In this document: positions 6,128 through 63,196 of the stretch, piece after piece | Position numbering within the stretch: the first letter of the stretch is position 1 | Layout of the letters: each line of letters starts with the position of its first letter | Origin: Bacillota bacterium | Lineage (GTDB): Bacteria > Bacillota > Negativicutes > Sporomusales > Sporomusaceae | Reading direction: 5' to 3' | Length of the DNA stretch: 64,000 bases | NCBI GenBank assembly: GCA_017889705.1 | Contig: JAGGAB010000017.1 | Span: forward strand, 1-64,000 | Program-made: the position numbers and the translations under genes | Notes under the pieces: model-generated | The model's input: only the letters and a program-made list of their open reading frames with translations | The model's database searches: none | What the model was told of the DNA's origin: nothing

Positions 6128-6154
6128 AGTAACGAAGTAAAAATCGAATAGTAC

Positions 6155-6322
6155 GAGATAGGTGCCCTTCGGGGCTTAATAGGGAAGACCGGTTAAAAGC
6201 CGGCGCGGTCCCGCCACTGTAACGGGGAGCAAGCTTAAGATATGCCACTGGGATGAAAAGTCTTGGGAAGGTTTAAGTAAGTGATGATCCGGAGTCAGGA
6301 GAACTGCCTGTCTGACAATCAC
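6155..6322 (+). ncRNA. Cobalamin (AdoCbl) riboswitch
   Basis: Conserved features are visible in order: GGTGCCC near 6161, the GGGAAG-type segment at 6182, the GCCGGCGCGGTCCCGCCACTG region with the central junction near 6200-6220, and the B12-box-like segment GTCAGGAGAACTGCC near 6294-6309. The layout and ~170 nt length match the AdoCbl class. It precedes a five-gene ABC importer, with two hairpins in between. Confidence 0.9.
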
Positions 6323-6392
6323 CGTTATGTTACCCACGAGGTATGGGGAGGGGATTACAGTAGGCACTTTTTCGTGTACCTAGTTTAATTCG

Positions 6393-13446: not shown

Positions 13447-13589
13447 TTCTAAACAAGTATTAACGATGCCGGTGAGAAAGGGGATAGAGAATAGGGATAT
13501 GGGTTTAGTAGATTAGGTAAGGGAGGAGTAAAATCTATATAGTGTTTTACGCTTTGGCTATATTTTACTAATAAGGAGAGGTAGACAAA

Positions 13590-14542
13590 ATGAAAAAATA
13601 TAAAGTGTTTCTATTATCCCTATTATTGATAATACCATTAACTTTATTGGGCTGCGGAAATTCAAAAACTGACACTGAGAGTACCAAAAAAGTGACATCC
13701 AATACCGATGTGGATTTGTCTGGGGTGGTTCTAAGAATCGGAGCAGCTGAAGGGAAAAATGGTCAGGCAATTATTGAAGCAGCCGGCTTAGATAAAACAC
13801 CATATAAAGTTGAATTTCATGTAATGCAAGGTGGAAATCTTGTACTGGAGGCAATGGCAGCCAATCAGCTTGATTTGGGAACTGGCAGTCAGATTCCGCC
13901 GATTTTTGCTTCGCAGTCAAGGAACGAAGGTAACTTAAAAATTATCGCAACAAAAAAATCGTCGACCTTGGATCAGGAATTAATTGTTTCGGCAAATTCA
14001 GCAATTAAATCTGTAAAGGATTTAAAAGGAAAGAAAATTGCATATGTAAAAAGCACAACCTCACAATACTTTCTTGCAAAAATGCTAGAAAATGCCGGTC
14101 TCTCTTGGGGGGATACGCAATACGGTCAGCTCGTGCAAAGGGCGCCGTCACATTACAATCAGCAGTAGGTATTCTTTCAGGCGATTTTTACTGGTATGCA
14201 ACTCCTGATGCTATAAAAGACCCCAAAAAACATGCGGCAATAATAGATTACTTGTCGCGGTTTCATGAAGCTAATGAGTGGGCAAGACAAAATCCTGATA
14301 AATGGGCAGCGCATTATGCACCGCAAATTAATCAAAAAACTCAGGACTATTTAAGTCAGTTTAAGGAAGAAAGTCAACAAACGAAAACAGTAATTGTTCC
14401 GATTGATGATGCAACAATTGCTTCTGAGCAAGATATTGTAAATACATTCGCCAAGTTAGGATTGTTAAAGAGCGGGATTGATATCAGTAAACTATTTGAT
14501 CACTCGTTTAATGCTGACATCAGCAAATTCAAAAAATATTAG
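13590..14542 (+). pseudogene. Disrupted SsuA/TauA-like substrate-binding lipoprotein
   Basis: The 5' part (13590 to ~14110) encodes a signal peptide with lipobox LLGC and the N-terminal lobe of a NitT/TauT-family binding protein (VLRIGAAEGKNGQAIIEAAG, then LDLGTGSQIPPIF). After LENAGLSWGD the frame breaks. The family-typical C-terminal part (AKGAVTLQSAVGILSGDFYW through ISKFKKY) continues in another frame from about 14105 to 14542. The segment expected between the lobes is also missing (a few tens of residues), so this is a deletion plus frameshift, not a simple one-base error. The permease and ATPase downstream are intact. Confidence 0.75.
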
Positions 14543-34703: not shown

Positions 34704-34730
34704 AATATTAAAATGAGAATATTCATTAAA

Positions 34731-34846
34731 GTCGCTTGCGTATAGTATCTGAGCAAAACTCAGACACAGAATAGACAAGCCTAGCTTTTTCTTAAGACAC
34801 AGCAAATTGTTGCTGTGCTAGAGGGCTGGGCTTGTTATTTTTTAGG
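34731..34846 (+). ncRNA. Unrecognised structured leader RNA, copy A
   Basis: P1 GCTTG (34734-34738) pairs with CAAGC (34776-34780). Inside, P3 CTGAG (34749-34753) pairs with CTCAG (34759-34763) around a CAAAA loop, after a conserved TATAGTA segment. The P1 3' strand is also the 5' arm of a terminator (34776-34785 with 34825-34834, then a T-rich tail). Same fold as copies B, C and D. It precedes the first DUF3870-like gene. Bases 34850-35011 hold no other feature. Confidence 0.75.
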
Positions 34847-35011: not shown

Positions 35012-35398
35012 TTGAAGGCGATACATCTTTTTTCCGGACATGGGCAACTCCCCGCCGGCACAGATTTATATGAGACAAGCCGCTATGCCACTATTGTCTT
35101 AACAGTCAATATCGAAACCGGAGAAGTTATAGACTGCGTTATCCCAAATTACTGCGAGATGCATCAGAGTTTTGTAGCAGATATCATTCGGGGTAAGTAT
35201 TTGGATAGTGATAGTGTGTCTATAATTTCTGAACTTGAGGAAAGAGTCCATAGCTTATCGACACGAGCCTTAATCACGGCGTTTCAGCAGGCACATAATC
35301 GGTATATGGTATACAAGGGACATTCTGTCAGTCAGTATTCTGGAAACGGTAGAAGTGTCTTAGCCAGAGAAAAAAAATTACGAAAAGTGGCAGATTAG
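35012..35398 (+). CDS. DUF3870-like small protein, copy 1
   Basis: 128 residues, starting at TTG with AGGAGGG upstream. IHLFSGHGQLPAGTDLYETSRYATIVLTV at the N-terminus and VHSLSTRALITAFQQAHNRYMVYKG near residue 90 are shared with the second copy at about half identity. I associate the pattern with DUF3870, a family without known function. No signal peptide or membrane segment. The last ~20 residues are basic. It is preceded by leader copy A, so its expression is probably tied to whatever that RNA senses. Confidence 0.7.
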   Translation: MKAIHLFSGHGQLPAGTDLYETSRYATIVLTVNIETGEVIDCVIPNYCEMHQSFVADIIRGKYLDSDSVSIISELEERVHSLSTRALITAFQQAHNRYMVYKGHSVSQYSGNGRSVLAREKKLRKVAD

Positions 35399-35448: not shown

Positions 35449-35484
35449 AAATACAGTAAGTTAAAATAAATTCTATTTTACCGA

Positions 35485-35585
35485 GTCGCTTGATTATAGT
35501 AACGGAACAAAATTCCGATATTGAGTAAACAAGCCCAGCTCAGTTCGCGATTACTTAAGATCGTGTATTGTGCTGGGCTTTTTTG
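35485..35585 (+). ncRNA. Unrecognised structured leader RNA, copy B
   Basis: P1 GCTTG (35488-35492)/CAAGC (35530-35534). P3 CGGAA (35503-35507)/TTCCG (35513-35517) around CAAAA. Terminator AAGCCCAGC (35531-35539)/GCTGGGCTT (35572-35580) with T tail shares bases with the P1 3' strand. It is the first member of a tandem pair. Confidence 0.75.
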
Positions 35586-35646
35586 TTTGTTAAGCGCTTA
35601 GGCTAGACGAAAAGTTTGAATTCAACTACATATGCGATGCACGCGA

Positions 35647-35753
35647 GTCGCTTGATTATGGTAACGGAACAAAATTCCGATATTACAAAGTAAGCAAGCT
35701 AAGCTCAGATCACAGTCGTTTTAGATTGTGTATTGAGTTTGGCTTGCTTTTTC
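35647..35753 (+). ncRNA. Unrecognised structured leader RNA, copy C
   Basis: P1 GCTTG (35650-35654)/CAAGC (35695-35699). P3 CGGAA (35665-35669)/TTCCG (35675-35679) around CAAAA, with GTAA/TTAC stacked below. Terminator 35694-35707 with 35734-35747 (14 bp) and five Ts again overlaps the P1 3' strand. Second member of the tandem pair, 30 bases before the second DUF3870-like gene. Confidence 0.78.
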
Positions 35754-35782
35754 ATTTCGCGGTGACATGAGGAGGAGTAAAG

Positions 35783-36121
35783 GTGAATTATATTCATATA
35801 TTTTCCGGTAATGCCCAACTAGCCGAGGGGTCAGATATTCACGAGACATATAAGTACATTACTGTAGTAGCAAAGATTGATGTGCGAAACGGAGAAGTCG
35901 TCGACTGTGATGTCCCGGTTTTTTGTGAGGGAAGCAGTGCTTTTATAGCGGAAATTCTTATTGGTAAGAACATTGCGGAAGATTTGGATGAGGTTATTGA
36001 TGAGATTGAAACCCGCATGCATTCATTATCAAAATGGGCGCTTATTACCGCTATTCAGACCATGCACAATCGCTATATCATGTACAAAAGAAATTGCTTG
36101 AAGAGTAGTAATTGCTCCTGA
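35783..36121 (+). CDS. DUF3870-like small protein, copy 2
   Basis: 112 residues, GTG start with GAGGAG upstream. Paralog of the protein at 35012 (IHIFSGNAQLAEGSDIHETYKYITVV; MHSLSKWALITAIQTMHNRYIMYK). Function unknown. It follows the tandem leaders B and C. No terminator is visible between it and the cupin gene at 36217, so it may be the first gene of the long catabolic operon. Confidence 0.7.
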   Translation: MNYIHIFSGNAQLAEGSDIHETYKYITVVAKIDVRNGEVVDCDVPVFCEGSSAFIAEILIGKNIAEDLDEVIDEIETRMHSLSKWALITAIQTMHNRYIMYKRNCLKSSNCS

Positions 36122-43652: not shown

Positions 43653-43974
43653 AAAAGGCTTACTGATTGACTATGAGTATTGTACCGGTTGTCATACATG
43701 CGAGGTGGCTTGTAAGCAAGAGCACCATTATCCGCCAGGCAAGTGGGGTATAAAAATAAATGAAGTGGTGCTGGAAACCTTTAATAAAGTAGAAATTGAT
43801 TATCTCCCCTTTCCCACTGATCTTTGCGATCTTTGTCAGCATAGAACAGTAAATGGCGAGCTGCCTTCCTGCGTGAAACACTGTCAAGCGGCTTGTATGG
43901 CATATGGAGAGATTAGCGAATTAGCAAAACAAATGGAAGAAAAGCCCAAAACAGTATTGTTTGCTCCTAGATGA
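43645..43974 (+). CDS. Ferredoxin-like electron-transfer subunit
   Basis: 109 residues. First Cys set CTGCHTCEVAC (C13, C16, C19, C23); second region CDLC...SCVKHCQAAC. This supports two [4Fe-4S] clusters in a minimal HybA/DmsB-type fold. It overlaps the preceding molybdoenzyme gene by eight bases, so it is almost certainly its electron partner. ATG with GGCAGGAG upstream. Confidence 0.85.
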   Translation: MARKGLLIDYEYCTGCHTCEVACKQEHHYPPGKWGIKINEVVLETFNKVEIDYLPFPTDLCDLCQHRTVNGELPSCVKHCQAACMAYGEISELAKQMEEKPKTVLFAPR

Positions 43975-60897: not shown

Positions 60898-60926
60898 TTG
60901 AAAAAGTCAAAATTATCTATTATAAT
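60898..60926 (+). promoter_or_regulatory. Promoter of leader RNA copy D and the moa operon
   Basis: TTGAAA (60898-60903), 17 bases, perfect TATAAT (60921-60926). It drives the leader RNA, the Moco riboswitch and moaA in series. Confidence 0.8.
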
Positions 60927-60954
60927 AAATTCATAAATTAATATCTGTACTTGA

Positions 60955-61060
60955 GTAGCTTGAGTATGGTATCAGAATAAAGTTTTGGTACATAGTAAGC
61001 AAGCCTAGCTCCTTAGAAAACAACAATTTATGTTGTTTTCTACGAGCTAGGCTTTTTTAT
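60955..61060 (+). ncRNA. Unrecognised structured leader RNA, copy D
   Basis: P1 GCTTG (60958-60962)/CAAGC (61000-61004). P2/P3 GTAT-CAGAA (60969-60977) pairs with TTTTG-GTAC (60983-60991) around TAAAG. Terminator AAGCCTAGCTC (61001-61011)/GAGCTAGGCTT (61044-61054) plus Ts overlaps P1. An inner AACAACA/TGTTGTT hairpin sits in its loop. Same architecture as copies A-C. It lies directly before a Moco riboswitch. Confidence 0.8.
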
Positions 61061-61077
61061 TTGAATTTAATAAATTG

Positions 61078-61190
61078 CACTCCGAGCAGCATAAACCTAA
61101 AGTCAACAAGGTTAGGCAGCCTGAACTCAGGTTCACAGGGTAGTGAAAGAAATTTCCCTACCTCCACTTTTGGAAAGGAGGCACTTCAAG
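61078..61190 (+). ncRNA. Molybdenum cofactor (Moco) riboswitch
   Basis: Begins with CACTCCGAGC and ends with CTCCACTTTTGGAAAGGAGGCACTTC. The 3' part parallels the E. coli moaA leader (CTCC...TGGAAAGG...GGCTTCAC). Internal stems are visible: ACCTAA/TTAGG, TGAAC/GTTCA and GGTAG/CTACC. It lies before moaA and is followed by a terminator. The call is from remembered motif features, not a covariance search. Confidence 0.7.
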
Positions 61191-61193
61191 TTT

Positions 61194-61238
61194 AGACAAA
61201 CTTTTTTTGTGCGCTTCTACATAAGTTTGTCTTTTTTG
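61194..61238 (+). terminator. Moco riboswitch expression-platform terminator
   Basis: AGACAAACTT (61194-61203) pairs with AAGTTTGTCT (61223-61232), followed by TTTTTG. It starts just after the aptamer and ends 34 bases before moaA. Confidence 0.85.
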
Positions 61239-61271
61239 TTACCTTCAATTTAATGCAAAGGATGATCTTGT

Positions 61272-62252
61272 GTGTTTGACAATTTTGCGAGAAACATCGA
61301 ATATTTACGCGTTTCTGTTACAAACAAATGCAATCTTCGCTGTAAATACTGTATGCCGGAAGAAGGCATAGCCGATATAGGTCACGAGAATATTCTATCA
61401 ATCGAAGAAATAGGACGACTGGTGAGGATAGGTGCCCGATTGGGAATTCGTAAAGTTAGGTTAACCGGCGGCGAACCGCTAGTTCGCAAAAATATAGCCA
61501 CCCTAATTGCAGATATTGCTGCCATTCCCAAAATCTCAGATATATCCATAACAACAAACGGAATGCTTTTTGCTGATATGGCGGAAGACTTAAAAAAGGC
61601 TGGTTTAAAAAGAGTCAACTTCAGTTTAGATAGCCTCGACCCGGACCGGTTTAAGTATATTACGAGTCGCGGAATTTTAAAGAATGTAATTCGTTCGATA
61701 TCAAAAGCCATGGAACTGGACATGGGACCGGTCAAGATCAATATGGTCGTCATGAAGGGGGCTAATGATCATGAGATATTGGACTTTGTTGAGTTAGCCA
61801 AAAAAATGCCGCTTAATGTTCGGTTTATTGAATTTATGCCTGTAGGAGACTTGCCTTTTTATAAGACAGACCGTGTGGTAACAGTACATGATATCAGAAA
61901 GATTATTGAACAAAAGTACGAGCTGACTAAAAATGTAACAATTCAAGGGAATGGCCCTGCGAAATCATATCAAATTCGTGGTGGGCTTGGCACCATAGGG
62001 TTTATAAGTGCTATGAGCGATCATTTTTGCGGTGAATGCAACCGAATTCGTATGACGGCAGATGGCAAACTGCGAAGTTGTTTGTTTAGTAATAACGAGC
62101 TAAATATGAAGCTGGCTCTTAAAAATAATGCTAGTGATGATAAAATTGCAGAAATATTTACTAAAGCCATTAAGGAAAAGCCTAATCGGCATCATATGAA
62201 TGAAGGCTGGGGTGCAGACAATAAACGCAAGATGTACCAAATAGGAGGCTAA
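61272..62252 (+). CDS. moaA: GTP 3',8-cyclase (radical SAM), molybdopterin step 1
   Basis: 326 residues. Radical SAM cluster Cys in CNLRCKYC (C20, C24, C27) and the C-terminal cluster in FCGECNRIRMTADGKLRSC. LTGGEPLVRKN is the SAM-binding motif. GTG start with AAAGGATG upstream. Turns GTP into the cyclic intermediate used by MoaC. The C-terminal Gly-Gly (QIGG) of the family is present. Controlled by two tandem leader RNAs. Confidence 0.95.
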   Translation: MFDNFARNIEYLRVSVTNKCNLRCKYCMPEEGIADIGHENILSIEEIGRLVRIGARLGIRKVRLTGGEPLVRKNIATLIADIAAIPKISDISITTNGMLFADMAEDLKKAGLKRVNFSLDSLDPDRFKYITSRGILKNVIRSISKAMELDMGPVKINMVVMKGANDHEILDFVELAKKMPLNVRFIEFMPVGDLPFYKTDRVVTVHDIRKIIEQKYELTKNVTIQGNGPAKSYQIRGGLGTIGFISAMSDHFCGECNRIRMTADGKLRSCLFSNNELNMKLALKNNASDDKIAEIFTKAIKEKPNRHHMNEGWGADNKRKMYQIGG

Positions 62253-62253
62253 T

Positions 62254-62742
62254 ATGGAGTTTACACATTTTAATAATGCGGGGTACGCTCGCATGGTAGA
62301 CGTTAGTGAAAAAAATGATACAGTGCGCGTTGCAACGGCGCAGGCGGTAGTTCATATGCAGCCATCCACCTTGGCGGCTATAAAAGGTGGTGGCGTTAAA
62401 AAAGGGGACGTACTTGGCGTTGCCCAGGTTGCAGGAGTTATGGCAGCAAAACAGACTTCCAATATTATCCCGATGTGTCACCCGCTTATGCTGACCTCGA
62501 TTGACATTGCTTTTGAAACTGACGAAGCAGACTCGCGTATAGTTATTTGCTGCCAGGTTAAGACGACAGGAAAGACCGGAGTGGAGATGGAGGCAATTAA
62601 CGGTGTAAGTATTGCGGCTATGACAATCTATGATATGAGCAAGGCTATTGATCGGTGGATGACAATCACTGACATAATGCTTCTTGAAAAATCGGGTGGA
62701 AAAAACGGTTCTGTCAAACGGCTAGAAGCGCAATTAGATTAA
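62254..62742 (+). CDS. moaC: Cyclic pyranopterin monophosphate synthase
   Basis: 162 residues. IPMCHPLMLTSID (active-site region) and EMEAINGVSIAAMTIYDMSKAID are MoaC hallmarks. Starts just after moaA with AGGAGG overlapping the moaA end. Makes cPMP from the MoaA product. Confidence 0.96.
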   Translation: MEFTHFNNAGYARMVDVSEKNDTVRVATAQAVVHMQPSTLAAIKGGGVKKGDVLGVAQVAGVMAAKQTSNIIPMCHPLMLTSIDIAFETDEADSRIVICCQVKTTGKTGVEMEAINGVSIAAMTIYDMSKAIDRWMTITDIMLLEKSGGKNGSVKRLEAQLD

Positions 62743-62761
62743 ATAATAACGGGGGATAGAG

Positions 62762-63196
62762 ATGACAAAAGTACTTGCGGTCAATATCAGTGAAAAAAAG
62801 GGAGAACCCAAACAGACAATTGCGAAGGGGTATTTTGAAGTCAATAACGGCCTGCAGGGAGACGCTCACGCCGCCAATTGGCATAGACAGGTTAGTCTGC
62901 TTGGTAATGAAAGTGTGGAGAAAATTAGGATGATGGGCATTGAGGACCTGGAAGCAGGCAGTTTTGCAGAGAATCTTACAACAGAAGGCATAACTTTATA
63001 CGAACTTCCGATCGGTACCAAGCTGATGATTGGTGAAACACTGATGGAAGTTACACAGATTGGTAAAGAGTGTCATATGGGTTGTGCGATTCGGCAAAAA
63101 ACCGGTGACTGCGTGATGCCAAGAGAAGGGATATTTGCAAAAGTATTGACACCAGGGTGGATTATTCCGGGTGATTCAATTGAGATTGTTAATTAA
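62762..63196 (+). CDS. MOSC-domain protein
   Basis: 144 residues, one MOSC domain. NGLQGDAHAANWHRQVSLL at the start; the conserved Cys lies in GKECHMGCAIRQ. MOSC domains carry or transfer sulfur to the molybdenum cofactor, or deliver it to enzymes. GGGGGATAGAG precedes the ATG. Operon context with moaA/moaC supports the role. Confidence 0.9.
   Translation: MTKVLAVNISEKKGEPKQTIAKGYFEVNNGLQGDAHAANWHRQVSLLGNESVEKIRMMGIEDLEAGSFAENLTTEGITLYELPIGTKLMIGETLMEVTQIGKECHMGCAIRQKTGDCVMPREGIFAKVLTPGWIIPGDSIEIVN

Follow-up and report, generated by a model that had tools for sequence, protein, structure and literature searches.

Two leader elements ahead of moaA

The window analyzed here is a stretch of 64,000 nucleotides from a Sporomusaceae genome (contig JAGGAB010000017.1). 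Near its end lie moaA for GTP 3',8-cyclase (61272-62252, +; NCBIfam TIGR02666 equivalog), moaC (62254-62742, +; equivalog), and a gene for a MOSC-domain-like protein (62762-63196, +), the last two together filling 62254-63196. The order on the moaA transcript is promoter, leader copy D (60953-61060), molybdenum cofactor (Moco) riboswitch (61068-61196), Moco terminator, and moaA. A sigma-70-type promoter for the whole leader, TTGAAA-17-TATAAT with 11 of 12 consensus matches, is predicted at 60898-60926 (+) by consensus scan only. The consensus scan found no further promoter-like site on the + strand from 60926 to 61276, and thus there is no sign of a start between copy D and the riboswitch.

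The antiterminator hairpin of copy D occupies 60953-61011 (+) and matches the covariance model of its family with 79.7 bits. Its structure, derived from covariation, consists of P1a (GAGU/GCUC), a 1x3 loop (A/CUA), P1b (GCUUG/CAAGC), P2 (UAU/GUA), another 1x3 loop, and P3. The isolated copy D sequence reaches this hairpin in folding without constraints. Folding and the terminator test place an intrinsic terminator with the T tract TTTTTT at 61001-61060 (+). Positions 61001-61011 are the 5' arm of this terminator and also the 3' arm of P1; therefore, the two folds are mutually exclusive. The folding energy of 60932-61062 is -50.1 kcal/mol (z -7.4), and none of 200 shuffled sequences was as good. 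Because the closing helix P1 takes the 5' arm of the terminator, the hairpin is regarded as an antiterminator, whose stabilization would turn the gene ON. The sequence marks copy D as an antiterminator/terminator switch that acts in cis, and we infer the direction in which it operates in vivo.

The second element is a complete match (model positions 1-135) to the Moco riboswitch aptamer RF01055 at 61068-61196 (+). Folding indicates its terminator at 61194-61238 (+), ahead of the Moco genes, which begin with moaA at 61272. The terminator arms are AGACAAACTT (from 61194) and AAGTTTGTCT (61223-61232), followed by TTTTTT. The 3' strand of aptamer P1 (GGAGGCAC) can also pair with the terminator loop (GUGCGCUUC), which gives an alternative fold weaker by only 2 kcal/mol. 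This fits a predicted OFF switch, where the aptamer and the terminator would both be formed with Moco. Other riboswitches were also observed: a cobalamin riboswitch (108 bits) at 6143-6325 (+) in the window, and ZTP and cobalamin riboswitches near the leader cluster of the related genome G006 (L075, 6817-6901 and 9196-9378).

According to the initial annotation, transcription from a single promoter passes through two successive leader elements, both with a terminator, before it reaches moaA. The promoter scan, folding, and the covariance model all bear this out. Two findings that would speak against the claim had been named, a second element missing the Moco covariance model and a start site between the elements. 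Neither was the case: the second element scores 61.8 bits, where the gathering score is 36, and the scan found no other promoter-like site on the + strand before 61276. The two-input gate before moaA is real in its anatomy.

The RNA family of copy D and its regulon

Alignment places copies A, B, C, and D of the window in one RNA family, here called the type 1 leader. Copy A (34729-34845, +; hairpin 34729-34787) precedes a DUF3870 gene, and copy B (35483-35590, +; hairpin 35483-35541) and copy C (35645-35758, +; hairpin 35645-35706) stand in tandem. All three were identified, each with its terminator, by the covariance model and the terminator test. The model was built from the aligned copies A-D and searched in 300 genomes of the class. 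With a presence threshold of E < 1e-4, about 50 members are found in 11 of the 300 genomes (G000, G001, G006, G008, G013, G016, G020, G021, G024, G027, and G137), with E values down to 4e-21 and up to 11 members per genome.

The aligned family supports a single long hairpin with P1a GAGU/GCUC, a 1x3 loop (N / CUA), P1b GCUUG/CAAGC, and P2 UAU/GUA, followed by a second 1x3 loop (G / NNA) and P3. In the extended structure, 94.1% of cells are paired, and there are 76 double-change cells versus 20 in shuffles, with none of 500 shuffles as high. Isolated type 1 sequences adopt this structure in unconstrained folding. The form 5'-U-N / N-N-A-G is common to the two 1x3 loops, which are separated by 11 nt on the 5' strand, a spacing that would correspond to about one helical turn. 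The terminator test, which asks for a downstream arm complementary to the 3' arm of the hairpin plus a T tract, was applied to 53 covariance matches. It was passed by 46 of them (46 of the 50 best), with the terminator 38-51 nt downstream. The three weakest matches, L091-L093 (22-31 bits), were treated as false; they have neither a terminator nor the canonical motif.

No Rfam family was found above its gathering score for the leader copies of the window, also at permissive thresholds. The permissive matches of copy D, to microRNA families and to RF03530, were rejected as low-scoring chance matches. Searches of the open PMC literature, supplementary motif lists of ncRNA surveys aside, turned up no published account of the type 1 RNA or of DUF3870 as a regulator. 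Copy D belongs to a real, undescribed RNA family absent from Rfam.

The window carries pyrogallol/phloroglucinol degradation genes at 36217-59267 (+), named from Pfam and NCBIfam matches, with the pathway assigned by analogy with PMC10470551. They include a cupin, a 3HCDH-like dehydrogenase, a TRAP transporter, an SDR, molybdopterin enzymes (an AhtL-like one at 43961), a BKACE protein (51412), cyclases (52292 and 53114), and thiolases. The phloroglucinol cluster of Clostridium scatologenes contains PGR, DPGC, the 3-hydroxyacyl-CoA dehydrogenase-like TfD, TAL, thiolase, and CoA transferase (PMC10470551). The enzyme set here matches that cluster, together with a molybdopterin pyrogallol hydroxytransferase-like protein (PF21423 match).

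The genes behind type 1 leaders, several of which were named by eye from their sequences outside the window, are the cupin/3HCDH-like dehydrogenase operon, genes for pyrogallol hydroxytransferase-like proteins, cyclases, BKACE, and thiolase, phosphate butyryltransferase-like and butyrate kinase-like genes, MFS and tripartite transporters, DUF3870, and molybdenum-cofactor genes. By analogy with the characterized cluster, the type 1 regulon is assigned to pyrogallol/phloroglucinol degradation with a molybdenum enzyme, plus cofactor synthesis. Since the pathway uses a molybdopterin enzyme, molybdenum-cofactor synthesis would be a part of the same program. One unexpected regulon member is a gene for a protein of ~500 residues resembling a cell-surface (S-layer-homology) protein, which follows a type 1 leader (L078, 678-2381).

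The two-gate layout recurs outside the window, in Sporomusa silvacetica, where the order is leader, YitT-like gene, Moco riboswitch (69 bits), and moaA. In the Sporomusaceae MAG bin42, the leader lies ahead of moeA/moaA/moaC genes without a Moco riboswitch.

DUF3870 proteins and the RNAs beside them

Two genes of a DUF3870 subfamily, encoding candidate antiterminator proteins, sit among leader copies A-C, 25 kb upstream of copy D. They lie at 35012-35398 (+) and 35783-36121 (+), and their products score 56.7 and 71.7 bits with PF12986 (Pfam gathering score 22) and 160.6 and 159.6 bits with the subfamily profile. The subfamily, whose members score at least 148 bits where the next best protein scores 71, is present in exactly the 11 leader genomes of the 300. 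Members and non-members occur inside the same genus and inside family f3. The 11 genomes are related and horizontal transfer is possible, so the co-occurrence represents fewer than 11 independent events. The leader tracks the subfamily better than the pathway marker AhtL: AhtL occurs in three genomes that lack both leader and subfamily, and it is missing from three that have both.

The leader lies immediately 3' of 11 of the 18 DUF3870-subfamily genes. These genes are upstream of the adjoining leader and so not in the position of a target. In S. silvacetica, 11 leaders go with a single subfamily gene, a ratio that supports action in trans of the putative regulator. The DUF3870-subfamily protein is the most likely trans-acting partner of copy D, with RNA binding suggested by this genomic association.

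The AlphaFold2 model of the protein encoded at 35783 (pLDDT 87.7, pTM 0.82) has the order beta-beta-beta-alpha-alpha-alpha. Its nearest folds are IscU/SufU-like proteins and the C-terminal domain of xanthine-dehydrogenase-type flavoproteins; the best match has Z 8.4 at 16% identity, and Z values up to 8.4 fall in the "common arrangement" range of the tool. Among the Foldseek/VIA matches of the model, none was conspicuous as a known RNA-binding fold, which is not evidence of absence. The modeled fold neither proves nor excludes RNA binding. PDB sequence searches with a single DUF3870 sequence and with a profile gave no match. The only paper on DUF3870/PF12986 that searches of the open PMC literature brought up is PMC4387736, which gives the name DUF3870 to a beta-rich domain of Bacteroides (3kog). 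That structure is unlike the model and the sequences here, and nothing was transferred from it; this use of the name is a name clash or a redefinition.

Antiterminator/terminator RNAs of other sequence, named types 2, 3, and 4, were found beside three other DUF3870 clades by reading the DNA by eye. In each of them, the terminator takes the 3' arm of the hairpin and a 1x3-type loop is present (the upper loop of type 2 is 1x4). Type 2 RNAs come from Desulfallas sp. Bu1-1 and a Syntrophomonadaceae MAG, where the cluster also contains a DUF3870 gene from a separate clade. They were seen to adjoin xanthine dehydrogenase genes, at 13665-13780 and 13490-13550 of locus L100 and at 2605-2700 of locus L099. 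The type 3 RNA, GCUG-C-UUYRUUUAU...GUAAAUGAA-AUC-CAGC, lies directly 3' of 17 DUF3870 genes. The type 4 RNA, GUCUUAUUUAU-U-GGU...ACC-GAG-AUAGAUAAGAC, lies 3' of four DUF3870 genes; the sites are in L016, L019, L020, and L023, about 50-100 nt past the DUF3870 stop.

With the covariance model of type 3 (97.9% paired), 25 genomes yield 28 sites. Most of these, about 23, are just 3' of a DUF3870 gene, and five are elsewhere, before dipeptide epimerase-like or other genes. The exceptions are the three genomes G004, G012, and G026, which lack a type 3 DUF3870 gene despite a type 3 site. G004 keeps the leader and has a DUF3870 remnant with two stops (G004:C47:51817-51957). The genome of the window itself contains a type 3 DUF3870 gene and a type 3 leader before a racemase-like gene (G000:C126:14523-14559; L015 and L122).

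An automatic detector of mutually exclusive antiterminator and terminator folds at most 300 nt downstream of a gene was devised with the pattern already known from visual inspection. It is positive for 18 of the 21 type 3/4 DUF3870 genes (two clades) and for 41 of 410 control genes from the same sampled loci. In a further DUF3870 clade of nine genes, it is positive for only one. A tree built from 49 DUF3870 proteins accounts for the RNA types with four changes, which is the minimum, where shuffled types need 25 on average; the agreement between RNA type and protein tree is exact. The further clade (L025-L033; LFSGYAKLPTGITASELYK), essentially without an antiterminator RNA alongside, perhaps has a different role. 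By eye, its genes are next to an Asp23/Gls24-like gene, and several have a TauE/SafE-like gene on the other side.

The proposed gate and known systems

The initial annotation had proposed a two-input gate made of two riboswitches in tandem. Two distinct regulatory RNAs do stand in series and the second is a Moco riboswitch, but copy D is better read otherwise than as a second metabolite riboswitch. The co-occurrence with DUF3870, the adjacency, and the clade-specific RNAs favor, for the first gate, an antiterminator that depends on a protein, as in LicT/RAT systems. Protein-dependent antitermination at copy D by DUF3870, followed by the Moco riboswitch, is the best explanation, to which we assign a probability of about two in three; the binding, the inducer, and the directions in vivo are part of what is proposed. 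By default, the nascent RNA would form the copy D terminator and transcription would stop. An aromatic substrate or a pathway intermediate would make DUF3870 bind the copy D hairpin, possibly at the two 1x3 loops, and clamp P1, so that the terminator loses its 5' arm and the polymerase passes. The polymerase would next reach the Moco riboswitch and terminate when Moco is abundant. Expression of moaA-moaC would thus require both induction of the molybdenum-dependent pyrogallol/phloroglucinol pathway and a shortage of Moco, that is, "substrate AND NOT Moco".

Copy D could instead be an ON riboswitch that binds pyrogallol, phloroglucinol, an intermediate, or a general signal, with DUF3870 merely a neighbor from the same pathway; the leader would then be a true heterotypic tandem with Moco. 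The conserved internal-loop nucleotides, the riboswitch-like expression platform, and a regulon centered on one pathway are all compatible with such an aptamer. This explanation is unlikely, as the subfamily genes are mostly upstream of the leader rather than simply its target, the leader follows DUF3870 better than AhtL, and a shared aptamer would not predict the different but similarly built RNAs that other DUF3870 clades have with other gene sets.

More doubtful still is a reading in which the leader is controlled by an established antiterminator of the ANTAR or BglG/LicT family, and DUF3870 only modulates this control. The architecture is that of RAT and ANTAR leaders (PMC3369936), and an ANTAR protein is encoded in each of the 11 leader genomes (one noted in each). 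No ANTAR gene was seen beside type 1 leaders, and copy D is a single hairpin instead of the P1/P2 hairpin-loop pair of ANTAR targets. Proteins with the CAT RNA-binding domain (PF03123) number zero in the genome of the window and are missing from 10 of the 11 leader genomes, with one genome having it. The RAT consensus RF03530 reaches only 24.9 bits in copy D against a gathering score of 80. Least probable of all, and very improbable, is a plain attenuator or a temperature or processing element without a specific effector, the copies being duplicated terminators. Terminators alone are common and copies B and C are tandem duplicates, but the covariation lies in the non-terminator fold, the internal-loop nucleotides are conserved, and the leader is restricted to genomes with the DUF3870 subfamily.

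A broader reading extends the protein-dependent switch at copy D to the whole domain, and we consider it slightly better than an even bet. DUF3870 would be an unrecognized family of metabolite-responsive RNA-binding antiterminators with an IscU-like fold and, for each clade, an antiterminator RNA of its own that carries 1x3-type internal loops (types 1-4), and the moaA leader would be an AND-NOT gate joining a protein switch to the Moco riboswitch. As a part of this reading, held with the same narrow leaning, type 1 would serve phloroglucinol/pyrogallol degradation and Moco synthesis, type 2 xanthine dehydrogenase and purines, and type 3 dipeptide or peptidoglycan catabolism. A testable function is thereby proposed for DUF3870, with the cognate RNAs named, and at least two regulatory RNA families missing from Rfam are added. 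If the proposal is true, a cofactor pathway is naturally gated by demand, through substrate-induced protein antitermination, and by supply, through the Moco riboswitch; a Sporomusa-like host would make the cofactor only when it is needed for the degradation of plant phenols and is scarce. The hairpin of ~60 nt and the protein of ~110 aa could serve as a compact antitermination tool.

The closest parallels are BglG/LicT/SacY with their RAT hairpins. They share an internal-loop hairpin that overlaps and excludes a terminator, an exclusivity found in copy D and in 46 of the 50 best family members. They also share several targets per genome, catabolic operons as targets, and a regulator gene that adjoins or lies among the targets it controls; the layout at 11 of 18 subfamily genes is that of a bglG/RAT operon. 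Unlike these regulators, the protein here is DUF3870, with an IscU-like predicted fold and without CAT or PRD domains, and the RNA sequence and internal loops differ. The ANTAR antiterminators (AmiR, NasR, and EutV) are similar in that a signal-dependent protein stabilizes the antiterminator against the terminator. Their targets are two successive hairpins with recognized loops (PMC3369936), whereas the comparative structure of the type 1 leader is one long hairpin whose internal loops are 1x3.

The second element is like the described Moco riboswitches RF01055 (Regulski 2008, PMC2408646) in matching the covariance model as a full member, standing before moaA, and having a terminator as its expression platform. 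Known tandem Moco RNAs are doublets or triplets of Moco itself (PMC9481103), while here the Moco element comes after an unrelated RNA. Heterotypic tandem riboswitches, such as guanine-PRPP (PMC5912903), likewise place two different sensors in series as a logic gate on one transcript. In contrast to them, the first sensor ahead of moaA is probably protein-dependent, which would make this leader a mixed protein/riboswitch gate.
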